This document shows positions 3,514 to 63,172 of a stretch of DNA of 64,000 nucleotides, piece by piece. This stretch comes from Natrinema saccharevitans (lineage in GTDB: Archaea; Halobacteriota; Halobacteria; Halobacteriales; Natrialbaceae). Below the pieces are notes generated by a model that was given only the letters and a program-made list of their open reading frames with translations, ran no database searches and had not been told where the DNA came from. Each line of letters starts with the position of its first letter. The stretch's first letter is position 1. The position numbers and the translations under genes are program-made. The stretch covers positions 248,001 to 312,000 of the forward strand of contig NZ_LWLN01000001.1 of NCBI RefSeq assembly GCF_001953745.1, given 5' to 3'.

Positions 3514-3544
3514 CGGTAGCTCCCGTACCAACGCTACGGAAGCC

Positions 3545-3907
3545 ATGTCCGACGACAATTCACGGGACCATGAAGGTCCCGACCGACCCGACGTATCGAT
3601 CCCAGCCGCGTCCGATGGCGAACTGACGGATGGCACCGTCCGCGAGCGCCTCGAGATGATCGACCGACTCACGCGGTCGTTGCTCGCCGATATCCAAGCC
3701 GGAGCGGGAGCCACCCCGATCGGGGACGCCGACGATCGCTCCGAGGCCTGCCGACACGTTCGGGAGATCAGAGCCGAGGCCAGCCGCGTCGGCCTCCTGC
3801 TGTTCGGTCCCGAGATGGCGATTCCCTACGACCCAGCGGCTCACGATGGTCTTTCTTGCTCTGGATCCGGGGTCGCTCGAGGACGGGACGATCCGTCGCT
3901 ACGATAA
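3545..3907 (+). CDS. MSDDN-family hypothetical protein, copy 1 (C-terminus replaced)
   Basis: A 120-residue acidic protein of unrecognised family. Residues 1-99 nearly match the protein at 4977 (substitutions at three positions). They consist of a disordered acidic N-terminus (MSDDNSRDHEGPDRPDVSI) and a helical core containing TVRERLEMIDRLTRSLLADI and RSEACRHVREIRAEAS. After AAHDG the two copies diverge abruptly; here the frame runs into the remains of a TumE-like toxin and stops 21 residues later. So the C-terminus seems to be a recombination product, not native. ATG 3545 matches the start of copy 2 and lies downstream of the shared hairpin leader. Confidence 0.65.
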   Translation: MSDDNSRDHEGPDRPDVSIPAASDGELTDGTVRERLEMIDRLTRSLLADIQAGAGATPIGDADDRSEACRHVREIRAEASRVGLLLFGPEMAIPYDPAAHDGLSCSGSGVARGRDDPSLR

Positions 3908-4947: not shown

Positions 4948-4976
4948 GACAGCTCCCGTATCACGCTACGGAAGCC

Positions 4977-5384
4977 ATGTCCGACGACAACTCACGGGAC
5001 CATGAAGGTCCCGACCGACCCGACGTATCGATCCCATCCGCGTCCGATGGCGAACTGACGGATGGCACCGTCCGCGAGCGCCTCGAGATGATCGACCGAC
5101 TCACGCGGTCGTTGCTCGCCGATATCCAAGCCGGAGCGGGAGCCACCCCGATCGGGGACGCCGACGATCGCTCCGAGGCCTGCCGACACGTTCGGGAGAT
5201 CAGGGCCGAGGCCAGCCACGTCGGCCTCCTGCTGTTCGGCCCGGAGATGGCGATTCACTACGACCCGGCGGCCCACGACGGCGATGCACCGGGGGTGTCT
5301 CGTAGTCGCTCGCTCACGACGGCGTTTCGAGGTCCGGAGCCGGGGGCGCTCGAGCAGGAACGTCAGCGGGACGGCGATGGATAG
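4977..5384 (+). CDS. MSDDN-family hypothetical protein, copy 2
   Basis: A 135-residue protein, probably the more intact member of the pair. The first ~99 residues match the copy at 3545, with about 10 base differences over ~295 bp, mostly third positions. The tail here is low-complexity and polar (SRSRSLTTAF, GALEQERQRDGDG). No enzymatic motif, signal peptide or membrane helix is visible; one Cys lies in EACRHVREI. The divergent winged-helix gene and shared hairpin leader suggest a small regulated cargo gene of a mobile or phage-derived unit. Function unknown. Confidence 0.65.
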   Translation: MSDDNSRDHEGPDRPDVSIPSASDGELTDGTVRERLEMIDRLTRSLLADIQAGAGATPIGDADDRSEACRHVREIRAEASHVGLLLFGPEMAIHYDPAAHDGDAPGVSRSRSLTTAFRGPEPGALEQERQRDGDG

Positions 5385-5850
5385 GTAACGGATTTCGTTC
5401 GTCAGGGTTCATTGTACGGGCTTTCTTCGATTTCGGCTCCTTGAAGGTCGATTCTGGTCTAATTAGTGAGACCTATCCAGGGACGCAGGCACAGATGGCC
5501 GAGAAGCGACGGTTCGAATTTTCATGCTCGTACACACGATCCGGTATCTCCTAGTTTTTCGACTCACTGAACGGCCCATTCTGTCCCCAAACCAGCGGAA
5601 CTTGTCGCTCATTCGAAGATACGTTCTATTCTCACCAGGAGCCGAACTCGAGATATGCATACGAGGATTCGCGTCTCGTGTGCATATTCGGGAATCGGAT
5701 TTTATCGACGTACAACCTCAGGGGGTTGGATCGAAACAGTGATTTACCATCTTCTATTCACTCAGTGGTTGGCTGAACGTCCCGATAACTATGTGTGCGT
5801 ATTGATCGCTCATCGTCATCCTTTTCGGCTGACTCTTTGAGGGGCTGCTT
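5385..5850. other. Gene-poor A+T-richer spacer
   Basis: I see no convincing gene in this stretch. The short open frames have no acidic bias and no start signals. The region is noticeably less G+C-rich than the flanking chromosome, like the pyrophosphohydrolase gene that follows. It contains a few ATGCATAC/GTGCATATTCG words resembling those at 3354-3416. It is best read as island DNA, perhaps eroded. Confidence 0.5.
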
Positions 5851-17715: not shown

Positions 17716-17801
17716 CTATAGTAGCCGTTGAAACGATTTACACACTGGTCGCAACGCTGTCGTTCGATCAGGTGTGCAATGACGTTCAGCGGCTACTATA
17801 G
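17716..17801 (+). repeat. 86-bp palindromic element, copy 1
   Basis: Begins CTATAGTAGCCG and ends CGGCTACTATAG, a perfect 12-bp terminal inverted repeat. The interior continues as an imperfect hairpin with TTTACACACTGGTCGCAACG pairing against CGTTCGATCAGGTGTGCAA around a CTGT loop. Three further copies occur in the window. No transposase frame is inside. Confidence 0.85.
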
Positions 17802-37723: not shown

Positions 37724-38150
37724 GGCTACCTCCGTGCCGCTCGATGTGTCGCTGTCAGTCGCCGATAGCGGCGGTCCCCGTCGTCCGATACGGTCATGCT
37801 ACTCACTCGTAGCGGGGGTGTTCGTATAGATGTCCGCTCGAGTTCGCCCCCCGAATCGGCCCGCGTTTCGAGTCGTGAGTCGAGTCTCGATACGCCGGCT
37901 GAAGTGATACTGAGCTTGATACTCCGGTTAGCCCTTGTCTCCGTCGGGGTACATCCCCAGAATCTGTGATGCCAACGGCCTCGTCACGCGCCGGCCTTCG
38001 GCGGGATACGACCGGTGTCCCGTCGCCACGCCTACGGAGGGAGCGGCGGGTTCGGCCCGTCGAGCCGGCGGGTGACGTTCGCGTTCGCGCGGACGGCACG
38101 CGTCGCGACGACGCGGCGGCGACGAGGACGGCATGCAGGGTGTACACACT
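37724..38150. other. Divergent control region arlCE / archaellins
   Basis: No gene is supported. The stretch next to the archaellins is very G+C-rich with no clear TATA box at -30 of ATG 38151, so the archaellin transcript probably has a long leader. A GCTAC/GTAGC dyad lies at 37797-37812. Confidence 0.45.
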
Positions 38151-38870
38151 ATGTTCGAAGCAATAACAGACTACGACAACGACGACCGCGGGCAGGTCGG
38201 GATCGGGACGCTCATCGTGTTCATCGCGATGGTCCTGGTCGCGGCGATCGCGGCAGGGGTACTGATCAACACGGCTGGTGTTCTGCAAACGCAGGCATCC
38301 GACACCGGCTCCGAAACACAGGAAGCAGTTGCGAATCAGATCGAAGTGACACATGCTAGTGGGAACGTGACTCCTGGGTACGGGGATGGACGGACTGTCG
38401 ACGTCGTCAACCTGTCCGTCATGAAGTCGGCTGGTTCCGACTCGATCGATCTCGAATCAATGACGATTCAGTATACGAGTTCGTCTGTTGACCAGACGTT
38501 GACCTACGGCGGTAATAATTTCGTTACTCCAGACTACAGTAGTGATGGAACAAGTGGACTCACGAATACGGCAGACACCTATACTGATGGCACATCCGCT
38601 GCAAACCACACGGCCTTTGCAACGGAGAACATTGCCGGTGATGATGGTGGTGACACTGAACTCATTAGCACTGATGACCGAGTAAAGGTTACACTATTTG
38701 TTGCCGCAATTGAGGAAGGGTCCGGCGCAGACGGGGATGTCAATGCAGATAGTGGTCTCACGGGTGGTGAGAGTGCAACGATTAAGCTGACGGACCAGTC
38801 CGGTGCGGAATTCTCCTACGGCATCAGTGTTCCATCGACCTTCGGCAACAAACAAATCGTGGAGGTGTGA
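38151..38870 (+). CDS. Archaellin 1
   Basis: A 239-residue archaellin. After the prepilin-type leader ending DRGQVGIG comes the hydrophobic assembly helix [20 protein letters not shown], then the surface domain and the closing [13 protein letters not shown]. ArlK (PibD) would cleave before the helix, after the glycine of the leader. ATG 38151 is chosen by comparison with the two following paralogues, which also begin MFE. Ser/Thr/Asn-rich loops with NxS/T sites (NHT, NLS) suggest N-glycosylation. Confidence 0.93.
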
Positions 38871-38872
38871 CG

Positions 38873-39580
38873 ATGTTCGAGAAAATAACTGACGATAATG
38901 AGCGTGCACAGGTCGGGATCGGGACCTTGATCGTGTTCATCGCGATGGTCCTGGTCGCAGCGATCGCAGCGGGCGTCCTGATCAACACGGCTGGAGTCCT
39001 GCAAACGCAGGCCTCTGACACCGGCTCCGAAACGCAAGAGGCGGTCGCTAATCAGGTGGAGGTCACACATGCATCTGGGAACGTCTCCGGAACGGACAAG
39101 ATCGATTCGGTCAACCTGACGATCATGAAATCGGCCGGTTCGAACGCGATCGATCTCGAGTCGATGACGATCCAGTACACCAGTGATAGCGTCGACCGGA
39201 CGTTGACTCATGGTGGAAACGACGTCGGAGCCACTAATGATGTTGATTATAGTTCCAGTACTACTGATGACCTTGGTGTCTTAAATGCCACCCAGTTCGC
39301 GACCAACAATATCGCTGGCGACGACGGTGGCGATAATGAACTCATCAGTACCGACGACCGAGTGACAGTTACACTTCAAGTAGCCGCAATTGAGGCTGGT
39401 GCAGAAGGTGACGGTTCTGCTACGCCACTTAGTGAGGGCGATATCGAGAACCTCAATGAAGACGGTCTCGAGGGCGGAGACAGCGTCACGCTAACGCTAA
39501 CCGACCAGTCGGGCGCCGAGTTCACCTACGGGATCAGCGTCCCGTCGACCTTCGGGAACAAGCGCATCGTGGAGGTATAG
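38873..39580 (+). CDS. Archaellin 2
   Basis: A 235-residue archaellin, nearly identical to archaellin 1 over the first ~70 residues (leader, helix and [20 protein letters not shown]) and at the C-terminus ([17 protein letters not shown]), with a variable middle. It begins 2 nt after the stop of archaellin 1. Its Shine-Dalgarno GGAGGTG (38861-38867) is made from the last codons of the preceding gene. Confidence 0.93.
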
Positions 39581-40483
39581 ATGTTCGAACGACTCGTAGA
39601 CGAACGCGAGCGCGGGCAAGTCGGGATCGGGACACTCATCGTGTTCATCGCGATGGTCCTGGTCGCAGCGATCGCTGCGGGCGTCCTGATCAACACCGCT
39701 GGCGTTCTACAGACCCAGGCGTCTGATACGGGATCAGAAACGCAGGAGGCCGTTGCCAACCAGATCGAAGTCACCCACGCTGCCGGTCAGGTTAGCGGCG
39801 ATGTCGTTGATCAAGTGGATCTGACGCTCATGAAGTCGGCGGGGTCGAACGCGATCGACCTCGAGGCGATGACCGTGCAGTACACGAGTTCCAGTACTGA
39901 TGCGACTCTCACGTACGAAGACGGCACCACTGATGGAGACCACTTCGATACGGAAGAACTAGCTGGCGTAACCGATGGAACGTCGCTAACGACGACTGAA
40001 GACCGAGTTAAACTCATGCTAAATACCGCTGCGCTCGAAGGAGGAGGCGGCAGTGAGACTACGGGTCAGGCTACGTTGGATCTAGTCTCGGATGGGTCTG
40101 AAGTCGATACCGCAACTATTGACACGCAGCCCACATCCGGTGGTGATTTAGTCTTCTCGGTGGGAAGCAATTCGGGTTCATTCGACTCTGAAACAATCAC
40201 TATCTATGATAGTACCGATAGTTCTATCGGAACAATAGATGGAAGTGCTAGTGAAACGGAAGTTACAGTAGATAGTGGAGACTTCAGTGATGGCGAGCAA
40301 TTGACTGCGGAGGTCACGGACGGTAATGGAGATACGGTCACAGTTGACTATGCCTCAAACGGCGCTGGTCTTGAGTCCGGTTCGAGCGCGACCGTTTCGC
40401 TCGTCGATCAGTCCGGTGCGAAGTTCACCTACGGGATCAGCGTCCCGTCGACCTTCGGCAACAAGCAGGTCGTCGAAGTCTAA
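39581..40483 (+). CDS. Archaellin 3 with inserted domain
   Basis: A 300-residue archaellin sharing leader, helix and C-terminus with the other two, but longer by a block at about residues 162-263. The block is beta-rich and Ser/Thr/Asp/Gly-rich ([53 protein letters not shown]), like a bacterial-Ig-type repeat, and would project from the filament. Its DNA (40064-40369) is richer in A+T than the rest of the gene. It starts immediately after the stop of archaellin 2, with GGAGGT 4 nt upstream. Confidence 0.9.
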
Positions 40484-52650: not shown

Positions 52651-53220
52651 GTGACTCCCGACGACAACGACGACGCGTTCGCCGACGACGAGCAGCTACT
52701 CGTGCTGCCCGACGCGTTGCGCCACGAACTCAAGGAGCCGATGGGACCGATCGAGACCGACACGGACCGGCTCCTCGAGGCGGTCGACGGCCCCCTGATC
52801 GCCGTCGGCGACGTCGTCACCTATCACCTCCTGCAGGCGGACCGCCGACCCGACGTCGCGCTCGTCGACGGCCGGACCAAACGCAGCGAAGTGGACGAAG
52901 AGATCCGCGAAGCGGTCACCGAGGGCGCGAGTATCGAGGTTCGAAACCCGCCCGCCGAACTCGGCGTGCCGGTCGTGCGGGCGCTTCGGCGCGCGCTCTC
53001 GACCGACGACCCGACCACGATCTTGGTCGACGGCGAGGAGGATCTCGTCGCCCTGCCGGCGATCGTCGCCGCGCCCGAGGGCGCGAGCGTCGTTTACGGC
53101 CAGCCCGACGAGGGAATGGTCCACGTGAAAGTCACCGACGACCACCGCGCGGAGATGCGCGAGTTGCTCGAGCGTTTCGAGGGCGACACCGAGCGGTTCT
53201 GGGACCTGCTCGAGGGTTGA
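52651..53220 (+). CDS. GTP-dependent dephospho-CoA kinase (DUF359)
   Basis: A 189-residue enzyme of the archaeal DUF359 family, now assigned to the final step of CoA biosynthesis (dephospho-CoA to CoA using GTP). Visible: LIAVGDVVTYHLLQADRRPD, ALVDGRTKRSEVDEE, TTILVDGEEDLVALPAIVAA and GASVVYGQPDEGMVHVKVT. A GTG start sits 3 nt after the spt4 stop. The palindromic element begins 1 nt after its own stop codon. Confidence 0.9.
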   Translation: MTPDDNDDAFADDEQLLVLPDALRHELKEPMGPIETDTDRLLEAVDGPLIAVGDVVTYHLLQADRRPDVALVDGRTKRSEVDEEIREAVTEGASIEVRNPPAELGVPVVRALRRALSTDDPTTILVDGEEDLVALPAIVAAPEGASVVYGQPDEGMVHVKVTDDHRAEMRELLERFEGDTERFWDLLEG

Positions 53221-53221
53221 A

Positions 53222-53306
53222 TTATAGCGCCACTGACAGTCATTGCACATCAGATCGCACGACAGCGTCGTGATCAGTGCGTGAATCGTTTCAGTGGCCA
53301 CTATAG
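53222..53306 (-). repeat. Palindromic element, copy 2
   Basis: Inverted orientation relative to copy 1 and the most diverged at its tips (TTATAGCGCCACTGA against TCAGTGGCCACTATAG). The core GTCATTGCACATCAGATCGC and ATCGTTTCAGTGG clearly matches. It follows the kinase stop directly and contains the stop codon (53291-53293) of the photolyase gene. Confidence 0.8.
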
Positions 53307-54694
53307 CCGTCGTCTCGTTTTCCGAGCGCCCGTTCGAAGACCCGCTGGGCCCGCTCGTAGGCGTCCGTTCTGTCGACGATCGGGGCCGGGTAGTCGGGCG
53401 CGAGTTCGGACCGGCGATCGGCCGGCAGCGTCGGCCACTCGACGATCGCTCCGGCGGGCACGTCGGCCAGTTCGGGGACGTACTCGCGGACGAACGCCCC
53501 GGTGTCGTCGTACTTGGCGGCCTGCGCGACCGGGTCGAAGATCCGGACGTCGACCGAATCCGTCCCCGTCGAGGCGATCCACTGCCAGTTCCCTGAGTTG
53601 ACCGCCGGGTCGTGATCGACCAACCGGTCTCGGAAGTGGGCCGCGCCGCGTCGCCAGTCGAGCAGGAGGTGTTTCGTCAGAAAGCTCGCGACCACCTGTC
53701 GCGGTCGGTTGTGGATATACCCCTCCCGCTCTAACTGTCGCATCCCGGCGTCGACGAGGGGATACCCCGTCTCGCCGCGTTTCCAGGCGCGGAAGGCGGC
53801 CTCGTCCGTTCGCCACGCAATCTCGTTCGGGAACTGCTTGTAGTCCTCCGTCGCCAACTCCGGCGCGTGGGCGAGCAGGAGGTAGTACAGTTCGCGCCAC
53901 GAGAGCTCGAACGCGTACTTGTCGACGCTGCGTCGCTCGTCGCCGTCGACGGCGTCGCGAACGTCGGTCACGGTCTTCCAGACCTCGCGGATCCCGATCG
54001 CGCCGGCGGCCAGATACGGCGAGAGCCGCGAGACGGCCTCGAGCGGGCGCTCGACCGCGGCCGCGAGATCGTCCCGGGTGTCGGCGTAGCTTCGCAGTCC
54101 GGCGTCGCGGAACGACGCGAGGCGCTCGCGGGCGGCCTCGGTCCCCGCCGCGGGGAGGTCGATATCGCTGTCGGCGATCGGGACCGGCTCGTCGGCGGTG
54201 ACGTCGGCGAGCGCGTCCGGGTCGGGCTCGGGTACCGTGGCCGGCTTCGGCCGCTCCCGCCAGTCCGCGTGAAACTGGCTGTGGGTCGGGTACGAAGGTG
54301 CGAGCGTCCGCGGATCGACCAGGACGGCGTCTACGTGGGTCTCGAGGGGGACCGCGAGCGCGGCGTCGACGGCGGTCGTGCGGTCCCGTCGGACGGGCTC
54401 GTAGCACTCCGTCGTGACGACGCGGTCGACGTCGTATTCGCTGCAGAGTTCGGCGAGGACGTCGGGGGCCGGTCCCGACCGCACGAGGAGGTCGCTCTCG
54501 AGGTCGCGGTACCGCTCCCGGAGCGTCCGGACGGTCCGATCGACGAACGCGCGTTTTCGCGTCCCGAGGCCGTCGGTGACTGCGGGGTCGAACACGTAGA
54601 CGGGAAGGACGGGCCCCTCCGCGGCGGCGACCGCGGCGGCCAGTCCCCGATCGTCGGCCGTGCGCCGATCCCGCCGATGCCAGTACAGGAGCAT
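53291..54694 (-). CDS. phr: Deoxyribodipyrimidine photolyase
   Basis: A 467-residue blue-light DNA repair flavoprotein. The N-terminal photolyase domain (LLYWHRRDRRTADDRGLAAA, LPVYVFDP) precedes the FAD domain with RLSPYLAAGAIGIREVW, ELSWRELYYLLL, YPLVDAGMRQLEREGYIHNR, RQVVASFLTKHLLLDWR and VNSGNWQWIAS. It repairs cyclobutane dimers using reduced FAD. The last four residues (YSGH) and TGA are encoded by the palindromic element, so the original C-terminus may have been replaced. Confidence 0.94.
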   Translation of the reverse strand: MLLYWHRRDRRTADDRGLAAAVAAAEGPVLPVYVFDPAVTDGLGTRKRAFVDRTVRTLRERYRDLESDLLVRSGPAPDVLAELCSEYDVDRVVTTECYEPVRRDRTTAVDAALAVPLETHVDAVLVDPRTLAPSYPTHSQFHADWRERPKPATVPEPDPDALADVTADEPVPIADSDIDLPAAGTEAARERLASFRDAGLRSYADTRDDLAAAVERPLEAVSRLSPYLAAGAIGIREVWKTVTDVRDAVDGDERRSVDKYAFELSWRELYYLLLAHAPELATEDYKQFPNEIAWRTDEAAFRAWKRGETGYPLVDAGMRQLEREGYIHNRPRQVVASFLTKHLLLDWRRGAAHFRDRLVDHDPAVNSGNWQWIASTGTDSVDVRIFDPVAQAAKYDDTGAFVREYVPELADVPAGAIVEWPTLPADRRSELAPDYPAPIVDRTDAYERAQRVFERALGKRDDGYSGH

Positions 54695-54792
54695 AGTAGC
54701 GCTAAGCGACTCGAGGGTGTAATGTCCTCGGCCGTACTGGCCGTCATTCGTGTTCGTCTCCTCGTTCCTGGTGAGCGCTCGTCCTCCCGTGC

Positions 54793-55197
54793 GTGTTCGC
54801 GCTGTGGGTGCGCTATGCCGACGTGATCCGCATCGTGAAGGGGCCGGAACCGACGGTGGCCGGTACCGGCGACGACTCTGGCGCCACCCTCCGTATCGCG
54901 TTCGGGTCGAACTGGTTCCTGGTCGCCGCCGTGGTCGCGCTGTACGCCGGCTGGGGGTACTTCGCCGTCGCGTACCGTCGGCTGCTCGCCGCCGAGTTCC
55001 CCGCGTTCGACCGGTCGGCGGATCGGCTCGGCTACGGGATCGGCCTCTTCGGCCTCAGTATCGGTCCCGTCGCCGTCAGCCGACAGCTCACGACGGCCGA
55101 TATCAGCGGGCAGCTCTTCGTCGCCTATCTCGGCGTCGTCGGTTTTCTGCTCACTTCGAGCGCCGCGGCGGTCGGGAGCGAACGCGACGCCCGGTAA
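54793..55197 (+). CDS. Small membrane protein, possibly N-terminally frameshifted
   Basis: A 134-residue protein from GTG 54793 with three hydrophobic stretches (WFLVAAVVALYAGWGYFAVA, LGYGIGLFGLSIGPVAV, LFVAYLGVVGFLLTSSAAAV). Upstream, three different frames each encode hydrophobic fragments between ATG 54722 and 54793 (MSSAVLAVI; VFVSSFLVS; ALVLPCVFALWV), which together would make a missing first helix. One or two indels may have damaged the N-terminus, or GTG is the true start. No family recognised. Confidence 0.5.
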   Translation: MFALWVRYADVIRIVKGPEPTVAGTGDDSGATLRIAFGSNWFLVAAVVALYAGWGYFAVAYRRLLAAEFPAFDRSADRLGYGIGLFGLSIGPVAVSRQLTTADISGQLFVAYLGVVGFLLTSSAAAVGSERDAR

Positions 55198-55211
55198 CGC
55201 CGCGAGCGGCG

Positions 55212-56198
55212 CTACTCGACGACCGTGTGTTCGAGCGTCCCGATCCCTTCGACCTCGAGTGCGACGGTGTCGCCGTCCTCGAGCCACTGTCCTAGCTCGA
55301 GGCCACAGCCCTCGCCGACGGTGCCGCTGCCGATGACGTCGCCGGGATGGAGCGTCTCGGACTGGGAGACGTGTTCGATGATCTCGGCGAAGGAGTGATA
55401 CATTTCGTCGACGGTACCCTCAGACCAGACCTCGCCGTCGATCCGGGCGGTCATCGGCGCCGAGAGGACGTCGACGTCCTCGCGCGGGACGAAATAGGGG
55501 CCCAGCCCGTTCGCGAAGTCCTTCCCCTTCGCGGGGCCGAGTCGGCCTTTCATCTCCTCGCCCTGGATGTCGCGGGCGCTGAAGTCGTTGAAGACGGTGT
55601 AGCCGGCGATGTACGCCTCGGCCTCGTCGGCGGGGATGTCGCGGCCGCGCGTGCCGATCACCGCCGCGATCTCGAGTTCGTAGTCCATAATCCGTGAGTA
55701 GTCGGGCCACCGGATCGTCTCGCCGGGCGCGACGACGCTGTCGGCGTTGCCCTTGTAGTAGACCGGTAGCTCGTACCAGACGTCGGCGATCTCGCCGTCC
55801 ATGCTGTTCTGGACGTGTTCCTCGATGGCCATGCAATCGCGCAGCGAGTTGGGACGCGGCAGCGGCGCGAGCAGCCGGTACTCGCCGGGTTCGTACCGAA
55901 GTTTCGCGCCGCCGGGCCCGCGCTCCGCGTCGGTCTCGGCCGCGTACTCGAGGGCCTCGCGGGCGTCCGCGATCGCCCGGTCGCCGCGCTCTAAGAAGGC
56001 GATCATCTCCGGCGGGACGTGCGCGCGGGCCAGATCCGCGGGTGCCGGTTCGCCCTCGGCTGCGAGGGCCGCGCCGTAGGCCGCCGTCAGATCGACGAGG
56101 GTCGCGTCGCCGGCCGCGGCGTCGCCGGACTCGTCGACGGCACCGATGCGTTCGACCGGACCGACCGGCGTGTCGACTTCGAAGGTCGCGAGTTTCAT
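55212..56198 (-). CDS. Fumarylacetoacetate hydrolase-family protein
   Basis: A 328-residue FAH-superfamily enzyme (C-C bond hydrolase, isomerase or decarboxylase for beta-diketo acids). Core features: PVYYKGNADSVVAPGETIRW, metal ligands in MDYELEIAAVIG and the FNDFSARDIQGEEM motif. It closes with HPGDVIGSGTVGEGCG. It overlaps the upstream cyclase gene by ATGA, so both act in one catabolic route, probably of an aromatic or tryptophan-derived acid; the substrate is not clear. Confidence 0.88.
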   Translation of the reverse strand: MKLATFEVDTPVGPVERIGAVDESGDAAAGDATLVDLTAAYGAALAAEGEPAPADLARAHVPPEMIAFLERGDRAIADAREALEYAAETDAERGPGGAKLRYEPGEYRLLAPLPRPNSLRDCMAIEEHVQNSMDGEIADVWYELPVYYKGNADSVVAPGETIRWPDYSRIMDYELEIAAVIGTRGRDIPADEAEAYIAGYTVFNDFSARDIQGEEMKGRLGPAKGKDFANGLGPYFVPREDVDVLSAPMTARIDGEVWSEGTVDEMYHSFAEIIEHVSQSETLHPGDVIGSGTVGEGCGLELGQWLEDGDTVALEVEGIGTLEHTVVE

Positions 56199-57019
56199 GC
56201 GCTCTCACCTCCCGTCTCGTCCCCAATAAGGGCGACCGGTCGCACCCAGCCCGCGCTCCCGCCCTCGATCTCGATGGGGAACGCGACGATCGGGACGTCG
56301 GTCTTTCGCGGCAACGCGTCGAGGTTGGCCATCTTTTCGATCTGGCAGTACTCGACCTCCCGCCCCGCGAAGTGGGCCGGCCACAGTTCCGACTCCTCGC
56401 CCGATTCGACGTAGCGCTCGCCCATCGCCGCGAAGGGCTTGTCGAAACCGTAGGCGTCGGTGCCGATCACCTTCACGCCCTGTTCGACGAGGAACCGCGT
56501 TCCCTCGGCGCTCATTCCCGGAAACTCGGTCAGGTACTCCGGCTGCCCCCACAGCTCGTCGGCCCCGGTCTGGAGCAGGACGATCTCGCCGGGCGAGAGA
56601 TCGTGACCGAGGTCGTCGAGGGCGGCCTCCAGGTCCCCGACCCCGATCTCCTCGCCGGGATCCATCGATCGGAAATCGAGGACGACCGCGTTCCCACGGC
56701 ACCACTCGAGGGGGATCTCGTCGATCGTCTTCGCGGGCTCGCCGTCGACCTCGGGGCCGTAATGCCACGGCGCGTCGAGGTGGGTGCCGGCGTGGGGGAT
56801 GACCGCGAGGTCCTCCCACGCCAGTCCCATCCCCTCGGGGAAGTCCGCTGGATCGACGTCGTAGCCCTGTTCCTGCAGGGTCTCGGCGAGGCGTTTCGCC
56901 CCCGCTTCGTGGTCGAAGGCGTCGATCTCCGGTGGGGTTGGTTCGCTCGCGATGCCGTCCTCGAGGCCGATGCTCAGATCGACGAGCGTGGTCTCGTCGG
57001 CTGTCACCAAATCTCGCAT
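56195..57019 (-). CDS. Cyclase-family (kynurenine formamidase-like) hydrolase
   Basis: A 274-residue metal-dependent amidase/cyclase. The signature HAGTHLDAPWHYG (HxGTHxDxPxH) provides the metal ligands, with VDLSIGLEDGIASEP at the N-terminus and VKVIGTDAYGFDKPF later. Family members hydrolyse N-formylkynurenine or related ring amides/lactones. ATG 57019 avoids a basic extension from 57043. Operon with the FAH-family gene. Confidence 0.87.
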   Translation of the reverse strand: MRDLVTADETTLVDLSIGLEDGIASEPTPPEIDAFDHEAGAKRLAETLQEQGYDVDPADFPEGMGLAWEDLAVIPHAGTHLDAPWHYGPEVDGEPAKTIDEIPLEWCRGNAVVLDFRSMDPGEEIGVGDLEAALDDLGHDLSPGEIVLLQTGADELWGQPEYLTEFPGMSAEGTRFLVEQGVKVIGTDAYGFDKPFAAMGERYVESGEESELWPAHFAGREVEYCQIEKMANLDALPRKTDVPIVAFPIEIEGGSAGWVRPVALIGDETGGESA

Positions 57020-57135
57020 AGTGGCCACGACTCGAGGAAACACCGTAAGGATACCTGTCAGGGTCGGTGTGGGACCGACCGCCGGGTGTGCCCCCGAGGG
57101 TGTTCGACCCGCACCCGCGGGAGAATCTCGAGAAC

Positions 57136-57143
57136 CTATTTAC
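57136..57143 (+). promoter_or_regulatory. TATA box of geranylgeranyl-reductase-like gene
   Basis: CTATTTAC is 24-31 nt before ATG 57167, fitting a leaderless transcript. Confidence 0.5.
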
Positions 57144-57166
57144 CGTCCGGCGTGAACGTCCCCAGC

Positions 57167-58252
57167 ATGTACGATTTCGTCGTCGTCGGCGTCGGCCCGC
57201 CGGGGGCGCGGTTCGCCCGCCGGGCCGCCGAGGAAGGCTACGACGTCCTCGCTCTCGAGAAGGGGGCGGTCGGCGAGCCGCTGGCCTGTTCGGGCCACGT
57301 GAGTACTGACGTCTGGGAGTTCACCGGCGAGGGGGCGCGCGAGGACCTCTTTCAGAACGAGATCTACGGCGCGCGCTTTCACGTCGGCGGACCCGGCAGC
57401 GACGCCTATCCGTTCTACAAGGACGCGGTCGCGTCGAACGTCATCGACCGCGTCGGGCTCGATCGCCACCTCGCCGAACTGGCCCGCGAGGCGGGCGCGG
57501 ACGTCCGCGAGGGCCACACCGTCACCGCGGTCACGGAACACCGCGACCGGGTCGCGGTCGTCGCCAGCGGCCCCGACGGCCGCCTCGAGGTCGAGGCGAA
57601 GATGGTCGCGGGCTGTGACGGGCCGCGCTCGCGGGTGCGGGACGAACTCGGGCTCCCACAGCCCGACGAGCTGCTCCACGGCGTCCTCGCCTTCTCCGAG
57701 GAGGTGGACCACCAGGACTTCGTCGACGTTCACCTCACGCCGCCGACGTTCTTCGCGTGGCGGATCCCCCGCGGCGAGGCCGGCGTCGAGTACGGGCTGG
57801 CGGCCCCGCCGGGCGTTCAGGTCACCAAGCACTTCGAGGAGCTGATCGACGGCTACGAGGTCGACGTCTCGCACCGCTGTTCGGGCGCGATCCCGGTCGG
57901 GCCGCCCGACCGCGTGACGTCCCGGCGGGCCTTCCTCGTCGGAGACGCGGCCGCCCAGACCAAGCCCTTCACCGGCGGCGGCATCCTCTACGGCATGACC
58001 AGCGCCGACCACGCTGCCCGCGAGATCGACCCCGATCGGCCGACGACGCTGGCGGCCTACGAGCGCGCCTGGCGCGACGACTTGGCGCGCGAGCAGACGC
58101 TCGGCCGCTGGATCCGGCGCGCCTACTCGCTGCCCGAACCCGTCCAGCGGCTGGGGCTGGGCGCGCTGTCGGGCGAGATCGGCGTCCACATGGACCGGCC
58201 GACCTCGCTGGTCTCGCTCGATCACCTCAGGGCCGTCCTCTCAGGGTCGTGA
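57167..58252 (+). CDS. Geranylgeranyl reductase-family flavoprotein
   Basis: A 361-residue FAD oxidoreductase. The dinucleotide motif VVVGVGPPGARFARRAAEEG, the CSGHVST motif near residue 43 and LVGDAAAQTKPFTGGGILYG are those of the geranylgeranyl reductase family, which saturates isoprenoid chains of archaeal lipids or quinones. Single gene with its own TATA box. Which isoprenoid it acts on is unknown; other copies usually exist in the genome. Confidence 0.9.
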   Translation: MYDFVVVGVGPPGARFARRAAEEGYDVLALEKGAVGEPLACSGHVSTDVWEFTGEGAREDLFQNEIYGARFHVGGPGSDAYPFYKDAVASNVIDRVGLDRHLAELAREAGADVREGHTVTAVTEHRDRVAVVASGPDGRLEVEAKMVAGCDGPRSRVRDELGLPQPDELLHGVLAFSEEVDHQDFVDVHLTPPTFFAWRIPRGEAGVEYGLAAPPGVQVTKHFEELIDGYEVDVSHRCSGAIPVGPPDRVTSRRAFLVGDAAAQTKPFTGGGILYGMTSADHAAREIDPDRPTTLAAYERAWRDDLAREQTLGRWIRRAYSLPEPVQRLGLGALSGEIGVHMDRPTSLVSLDHLRAVLSGS

Positions 58253-58263
58253 CTACCGATCCT

Positions 58264-58349
58264 CTATCGTAGCCGCTGAAAGTCATTGCACACCTGATCG
58301 CACGACAGCGTTGCGATCAGTGTGTAAATCGTTTCAGCGGCTACGATAG
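58264..58349 (-). repeat. Palindromic element, copy 3
   Basis: CTATCGTAGCCGCTGAAA at one end and TTTCAGCGGCTACGATAG at the other are perfect 18-bp inverted repeats, the cleanest tips of the four. Orientation as copy 2. It begins 11 nt after the stop of the preceding plus-strand gene and contains the stop codon of the following minus-strand gene. Confidence 0.85.
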
Positions 58350-58907
58350 GACCGCCATGGCGACCGTTCCCAGGCCGATGCTACTGATGACGAATCCGAC
58401 GACGGGACCGAGGACCGGAACCGAACCGACCGCCACGGAAACGACGATCGCGCACCCCAGCGCGAGGAGCCGGTTGTCGCTGACGAGTCGACCGACGGCG
58501 AGGTAGCCGTACTCGCCGGCCACCAGCGCCACGAGGGCAAACACCAGGAGCAGCGGAATCGCGAGGACGAGTCCGATCACCGTGATCGCCAACAGAACCG
58601 ACGCGCCGATCACGGCCACCAGGCTGGCGATACCGTAGGCGAACGCGATCCCGGGCGACTCGAGCGCGCGATCGGTTTGCCGCCGCGTGCTGTCGGGTGC
58701 GACCGCGACCAGCAGGCCGCCGACGACGAGCGTGACGAGTCCGGCGCCGATCGCCTGGACGTACCACGGCGTGGCGGCCGCGGTCTCGGTACCGGTTTCG
58801 ACCCCGTTCGGCGCTCGCCGGGCGAGCGCCGCGGCGGGAACGCCCGTCAGGCCCAGCACGGTCGCGAAGGCACCGCTCCGAAACGAACGGCGGGAGGGCA
58901 GGCACAT
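58341..58907 (-). CDS. Membrane protein with signal peptide, unknown
   Basis: A 188-residue protein. An N-terminal signal-like segment (SFRSGAFATVLGLTGVPAAA) is followed by four hydrophobic helices (AIGAGLVTLVVGGLLVAV, IASLVAVIGASVLLAITVIG and two more). It resembles haloarchaeal membrane proteins found with bactofilin-like polymer genes, but no such partner is here. Its final Leu-Ser and TAG stop come from the palindromic element. ATG 58907 is preferred to 58952 because it directly precedes the signal. Confidence 0.7.
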   Translation of the reverse strand: MCLPSRRSFRSGAFATVLGLTGVPAAALARRAPNGVETGTETAAATPWYVQAIGAGLVTLVVGGLLVAVAPDSTRRQTDRALESPGIAFAYGIASLVAVIGASVLLAITVIGLVLAIPLLLVFALVALVAGEYGYLAVGRLVSDNRLLALGCAIVVSVAVGSVPVLGPVVGFVISSIGLGTVAMAVLS

Positions 58908-59021
58908 GCGTGGACCTGTCAAAGAGATCCGATAATACTTCCGATCCGTCACGTTTCGCGACCCCCGCCTCGAGTGCTGGAGTCGACAGACCGAAGGTCG
59001 CAGTGACGAAACGGGCGGTCG

Positions 59022-62677: not shown

Positions 62678-62763
62678 TTATAGTAGCCGCTGAAACGATT
62701 TACACACTAATCGCGACGCTGTCGTTCGATTAGGTGTGCAATGACTTTCAGCGGCTACGATAC
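62678..62763 (+). repeat. Palindromic element, copy 4
   Basis: Same orientation as copy 1. Tips TTATAGTAGCCGCTGAAA and TTTCAGCGGCTACGATAC; core TACACACTAATCGCGACGCT and GTCGTTCGATTAGGTGTGCA. The G-to-A and C-to-T changes (CTAATCG / CGATTAG) are paired, so stem complementarity is kept. It lies 1 nt beyond the stop codon of the minus-strand gene at 62765. Confidence 0.85.
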
Positions 62764-62764
62764 C

Positions 62765-63172
62765 CTACTCGTCTGTCCCAACGACTCCGCAGGCGATCGC
62801 TTCGGGCTCGAGCAGGTCCGTACCGTCGACGGCGTCGGGATGGACCACGAGGATCGTGTCGTCGGGCATCTCGCTCTCGACCCGTACGCCACAGCCCAGG
62901 GCCGACTCGAGGTCGCCGACGTCGTCGATCCCGGACTCGCGGTCGATGCACAGGTCGACGTTAGTCCGCGAACAGACGACCACGAGTTCCCCCGGCTCGA
63001 GGTGTTCGCTCTCGGCGGCCGCGAGTAAGGTCTCGAGCGCGTCGAAGCGGACGGCCTCGAGCGACCGGATCGTCACGCGCTCGGTGTCGGAGCCGGGCGC
63101 TCGCTGGGACTGGATGCGGACGCGGGCGGCCAGTTCCGCGAAGTCGGTCTCGGCGTCGAGATCGGCGGTCAT
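62765..63172 (-). CDS. Conserved haloarchaeal hypothetical protein
   Basis: A 135-residue acidic alpha/beta protein. A helical N-terminus (DFAELAARVRIQSQRAPGSD) and a strand-rich core (EPGELVVVCSRTNVDLCIDR, DTILVVHPDAVDGTDLLEPE) suggest a small compact domain. No motif is diagnostic. The stop codon abuts palindromic element copy 4. Confidence 0.7.
   Translation of the reverse strand: MTADLDAETDFAELAARVRIQSQRAPGSDTERVTIRSLEAVRFDALETLLAAAESEHLEPGELVVVCSRTNVDLCIDRESGIDDVGDLESALGCGVRVESEMPDDTILVVHPDAVDGTDLLEPEAIACGVVGTDE

Follow-up and report, generated by a model that had tools for sequence, protein, structure and literature searches.

A widespread haloarchaeal MITE, probably of IS630 type, that targets CTAG and sometimes supplies stop codons and C-termini to neighbouring genes

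Four imperfect palindromes in a 64,000-nucleotide stretch of a Natrinema saccharevitans chromosome (the window; C1:248001-312000 of a 3.98-Mb genome) are copies of a new MITE of the IS630 type that is very widespread in haloarchaea and works like the RUP element of Streptococcus pneumoniae. Very probably, the palindrome unites, back to back within 80 bp, the two ends (left and right) of an insertion sequence of the haloarchaeal ISNma7/ISNpe3 group, which belongs to the IS630 family. Members of this repeat family insert at TA, preferentially within CTAG, duplicate the TA, share their ends with IS630 elements, vary in occupancy among related genomes and change the C-termini of neighbouring proteins; we infer that they are mobilised by an IS630 transposase. 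A previous reading of the window, made from the sequence only, had interpreted the palindromes as being inserted at, or selected for, gene ends, perhaps as bidirectional terminators with built-in stop codons. The four palindromic copies are real, and two of them do supply a stop codon and a C-terminus, to a photolyase (copy 2) and to a putative membrane protein (copy 3).

All four window copies are versions of one 80-bp imperfect palindrome (TAGTAGCC...GGCTACTA) with the duplicated TA on both sides. The general layout is C-TA-(80-bp core)-TA-G, that is 86 bases with the flanks (Table 1). The two arms differ, one carrying GAAACGATTTACACAC and the other GAAAGTCATTGCACAC. Copy 3 is identical in sequence to a copy located elsewhere in the genome (L001). 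All four copies fold into hairpins that are much stronger than those of shuffled sequences (z from -3.5 to -10.4), and an alignment of 39 copies shows compensatory changes at 6 of 33 pairs. In alignment A3, such changes affect the column pairs 28-57, 31-55 and 32-54 and thus reach the inner stem, past the outermost terminal repeats. None of the Rfam covariance models matched copies 2-4. In the consensus, all six reading frames run into a stop, after 6, 16 and 86 nt on each strand. The element is short, repeated and devoid of a transposase gene, as is an IS630-derived MITE.

Empty sites were located in related genomes from the flanks of copies of the window genome, and they show that the target is a TA that is duplicated upon insertion. 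The sites of L001 and L003 read CTAG in three of three relatives, and that of L016 reads CTAG in N. thermotolerans. The site of a copy found in another genome (G052) is likewise an empty CTAG at the matching position of G072. Other targets exist: the empty sites of L010 and L022 read CCAG, those of L011 and L027 contain TA in other contexts, and the copy 3 site, which reads CCAG or CCTG in relatives, is at most suggestive of CTAG. Among 61 rebuilt targets, C precedes the TA in 45 and G follows it in 42. The sites of copies 2 and 3 and of L001, L003 and L010 are empty in relatives, showing insertion polymorphism. A palindromic target, hinted at by one empty site of copy 3, was also considered and was rejected after the CTAG empty sites had been seen.

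Such a palindromic target would have been reminiscent of the small mobile repeats SMR-A and SMR-B of Haloquadratum walsbyi (PMC3119063). Like the present element, these are haloarchaeal repeats of 80-110 bp with inverted ends and a high copy number. However, their descriptions set them apart, since they are reported to lack target duplication and transposon-like ends and SMR-A is aimed at IS605-type palindromes (PMC3119063). It is very improbable that the element is an SMR, moving without target duplication and by a mechanism of unknown nature: despite the likeness in size, inverted ends, host group and copy number, the TA is duplicated, the ends match those of IS630 elements, and insertion is into CTAG within ordinary intergenic DNA. 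The two readings would merge only if SMRs turned out to be IS630 MITEs themselves.

The IS630 parentage is argued from the ends and from the target. That IS630-family elements transpose into TA and duplicate it is established (PMC2170065), and a preference of IS630 for CTAG appears in the title of a paper cited therein. Thirty-one IS630 elements among those examined carry the ends TA-TAGTA...TACTA-TA, mostly in a C...G context, and the majority measure 1059 bp. The haloarchaeal ISNma7/ISNpe3 group, the name of which is taken from a plasmid annotation, resembles the MITE in its TA-TAGTA ends, in its C-TA-G target and in matching left and right ends. It differs in being about 1059 bp long with a transposase, whereas the MITE consists of the two ends only. 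Past the TAGTAG motif, the MITE and IS630 ends agree at 24.3 of 44 positions, as compared with a mean of 11.1 and a maximum of 21.7 in 20,000 shuffles. Moreover, the left-to-left and right-to-right fit (24.3) is better than the swapped one (22.5). This similarity is partial, at about 17-19 of 28 positions on average. MITE and IS630 elements also share the same CTAG target context (IS sites are mostly C-TA...TA-G). Other haloarchaeal IS630 subgroups were considered as parents and rejected, their ends being different (for example, TGA-TA-GTGATTAAGG). At two loci, L140 (about 1362-2510) and L161 (about 796-2010), an IS630 element is nested in a CTAG inside a MITE copy.

The presence of GTAG near the start of both arms, together with a stable imperfect hairpin, could also evoke a palindrome of the REP/BIME type, dispersed by a RAYT (Y1) transposase. 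We regard this as extremely improbable. Indeed, the 80-bp size, the inverted ends, the TA duplication and the CTAG targets fit cut-and-paste DDE transposition, and REPs are described as 20-40 bp sequences with the tag at one end (PMC3733652), while the element has GTAG in both arms.

IS630 transposases occur in 75 of the 125 genomes of the family. No IS630 transposase or autonomous partner was found in the window genome, yet it contains near-identical copies, which suggest recent movement; the IS630 source of that movement is therefore either lost from the genome or external. In the mechanism that we propose, an IS630-type transposase acting in trans would excise the element and paste it into a TA, preferably in CTAG, with duplication of the TA. 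Because CTAG is avoided inside haloarchaeal genes, yet is present wherever a TAG stop follows a C, stop codons are among the few tolerated targets in or beside genes. The inserted element opens with TAG behind the duplicated TA and stops all three frames from either side (6, 16 or 86 nt). If the insertion falls on the stop codon, the gene gains four residues (Tyr-Ser-Ser-Arg type) followed by TGA; if it falls a few codons before the stop, the gene loses its tail and ends with Leu-TAG or Leu-Ser-TAG. Finally, selection purges insertions within genes and just upstream of start codons, which leaves an apparent link with gene ends.

Table 1. Copies of the MITE and neighbouring genes in the window (window coordinates)
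Feature	Position	Strand	Description
MITE copy 1	17716..17801	+	C-TA-(80-bp core 17719-17798)-TA-G
MITE copy 2, diverged	53222..53306	-	T-TA-(79-bp core 53225-53303)-TA-G
Duplicated TA of copy 2	left 53223..53224, right 53304-53305		based on GAATCAGCC / GAGTTACCC in relatives
MITE copy 3	58264..58349	-	C-TA-(80-bp core 58267-58346)-TA-G
MITE copy 4	62678..62763	+	T-TA-(80-bp core 62681-62760)-TA-C
DUF359 protein (dephospho-CoA kinase in the sequence-only reading)	52651..53220	+	Pfam
Photolyase gene	53291..54694	-	Pfam DNA_photolyase + FAD_binding_7
FAD-binding protein (geranylgeranyl reductase-like)	57167..58252	+	converges on copy 3; stop outside element
Putative membrane protein	58341..58952	-	no Pfam family
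Gene at copy 4	62765..63172	-	TAG stop 62765-62767, 2 nt from copy 4, unaltered

In the window, the C-termini encoded next to copies 2 and 3 were compared with those of relatives, two of which (G062 and G075) belong to the same genus. This is the comparison that the sequence-only reading had proposed, and in both genes the relatives without the element have different C-termini. The photolyase ends as had been read, with Tyr-Ser-Gly-His-TGA: its final codons, TAT AGT GGC CAC TGA (stop 53291-53293), lie within copy 2. The protein terminates with ...DDGYSGH-stop in the window and with ...DG-stop in three relatives devoid of copy 2. The site is empty in G062, G065 and G075. The DNA at this position reads GAATCAGCCGTCG or GAGTTACCCGTCG in relatives and GAATTA[element]TAGCCGTCG in the window, a comparison that makes the TA of the photolyase stop codon itself the likely target. 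On the other side, the DUF359 gene ends identically in relatives. Copy 2 had been described as starting 1 nt past its stop; the spacing is close to this, the target beginning 1-2 nt past the TGA (53218-53220).

Copy 3 truncates the membrane protein, which ends with ...AMAVLS-stop, as compared with ...VMAFLEGRNSRP-stop in G062. The Leu-Ser-TAG end noticed earlier is correct, with the stop (58341-58343) contained in the first 9 nt of the copy, read from the gene. The site is empty in G062, G063, G078 and other genomes. In G061, the same site (L051, about 5075-5460) carries no MITE and has an insertion of ~360 bp encoding the zinc-ribbon end of a TnpB-like protein. This insertion likewise alters the C-terminus of the membrane protein (...VMAFLEGRG-stop), and the TnpB-like remnant suggests that the junction simply tolerates insertions.

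At copy 4, the gap between the TAG of the adjacent gene and the duplicated TA is 2 nt, and not 1 nt as first proposed. This copy is also found at the same site in G075 (N. thermotolerans) and, because it is common to both, is taken to be older. Three of the four window copies lie between converging genes. The remaining one, copy 1, is flanked by two minus-strand genes, 215 nt upstream of a start and 158 nt from a stop, and provides no gene end. The placement at gene ends that had been emphasized does not extend to copy 1, and 11 of 29 classifiable copies of the genome lie between divergent genes.

Elsewhere too, the C-termini of relatives diverge exactly at the insertion sites. At L016, one stop codon is seen in three states: the protein ends with DAI-stop at the empty site, with DAIYSSR-stop in the window genome and with DAIDSSS-stop in two relatives that have a different copy. 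When CTA is in frame, the gene ends with Leu-TAG; elements with the TATCG variant, such as copy 3, give Leu-Ser-TAG instead. The insertion at L011 leaves the protein unaltered. The flanks are near-identical at the L016 copy (1501-1586) and at the corresponding site of L190, L211 and L212, the site being empty in N. thermotolerans. G062 and G065 carry there a clearly different MITE copy with arms GTAGCTCTTG...CAAGAGCTAC. This diversity could result from independent insertion at one CTAG or from replacement through recombination between copies.

Placement relative to genes was counted using gene calls from a simple codon-usage script and the best-scoring copies, which are not a random sample. 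CTAG is scarce, with 381 occurrences in 1.25 Mb, at 0.17 per kb in predicted genes vs. 0.74-1.0 per kb between them, and 28 genes in 1.25 Mb end with C-TAG. Among the 61 copies with clear ends, 9 fall on a stop codon, one of which (L013, equal to copy 4) was assigned there because the script misplaced a boundary, and 44 lie in non-coding DNA, while the corresponding ratio for CTAG sites is 28:203 (p=0.37). Few copies are found in gene interiors and none between 35 nt upstream of a start and 10 nt into the gene, an interval that holds 42 of 378 CTAG sites. Since stop codons are hit as expected from CTAG availability and copies near starts or within genes are absent or few, target choice together with purging of harmful insertions explains most of the placement pattern.

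These counts bear on the idea that the element is kept at gene ends as a bidirectional terminator, or as a hairpin at mRNA 3' ends with built-in stops. The strong hairpin with its compensatory changes, the closure of every frame, the three window copies between converging genes and a mild excess of copies within 35 nt of stops (22:39 vs. 51:190 for CTAG sites, p=0.019) are in line with it. However, the comparison group for this excess includes purged start-proximal sites, exact stop-codon placements fit CTAG availability (p=0.37), and the 29 classifiable copies comprise 11 in divergent, 11 in tandem and 7 in convergent contexts. In addition, relatives without the element keep the same gene pairs. 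Terminator-like motifs (a G+C-rich stem plus a T-tract, a consensus of bacterial type) occur twice vs. 3.4 times expected from shuffles, and at neither copy 3 nor copy 4. Thus, insertion at gene ends with built-in stops stands, as all frames are closed, C-termini are altered and, of 68 copies examined, about 20 provide the stop of a neighbouring gene. Neither selection for gene ends nor a terminator role is supported, because stop placement agrees with CTAG availability and 11 of 29 classifiable copies lie between divergent genes. Overall, the terminator interpretation appears quite improbable, although hairpins at gene ends could affect transcription. A broader proposal, in which the MITE repeatedly provides haloarchaeal genes with short C-terminal tails and stable hairpins at their 3' ends, CTAG targeting directs it to TAG stops and some copies have been kept as 3'-end or termination signals, is rather unlikely.

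The window genome contains at least about 130 copies: 148 covariance-model matches minus 16 duplicates on both strands leave 132, a lower bound from scoring the best 150 candidates. The smaller replicon (contig C2, 422 kb) carries about 30 copies, ~70 per Mb vs. ~30 per Mb on the main chromosome. Matches were found in 98 of the 125 genomes of the family and, at the level of the class, in 150 of 391 sampled genomes representing 39 of 86 genera. The element is also present on haloarchaeal plasmids, and no match was found in phage or viral collections and contigs. In the draft genome of N. thermotolerans, the junction between neighbouring head-to-tail copies contains an N, and the arrangement may have arisen during assembly.

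Our literature search, in which subscription papers were mostly out of reach, returned the Haloquadratum SMRs and bacterial MITEs but no published description of this repeat. The closest parallel is RUP, a 107-bp element with 108 copies, for which IS630-Spn1 was proposed as the mover (PMC2229807). Both elements are short and non-coding, have inverted ends shared with IS630-family elements, target and duplicate TA, reach ~100 copies and carry stops in six frames (PMC2229807). In contrast to RUP, the MITE has an unrelated sequence, a host from another domain, a strong CTAG preference and a size of 80 bp, and no IS630 was found in its host genome. Correia/NEMIS elements of Neisseria and ERIC of enterobacteria are also short palindromic mobile repeats with TA ends, target duplication and hairpin transcripts; they differ in sequence and hosts, and the review consulted does not establish an IS parent for them.

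A widespread haloarchaeal repeat is thereby explained and linked to a named IS group through a mechanism that can be tested. The CTAG preference makes stop codons natural landing sites, where proteins are lengthened or trimmed by a few residues and are not destroyed. For annotators, C-termini such as ...YSSR-stop or ...YSGH-stop may be transposon-derived.

Two further features are present in the window. A 300-bp direct repeat (3531-3830 and 4963-5262; 98% identical, spacing 1432 bp) has ORFs for which no Pfam match was found. Positions 38133-40483 carry three archaeal flagellin genes (PF01917) in tandem, parts of which are 76-86% alike.
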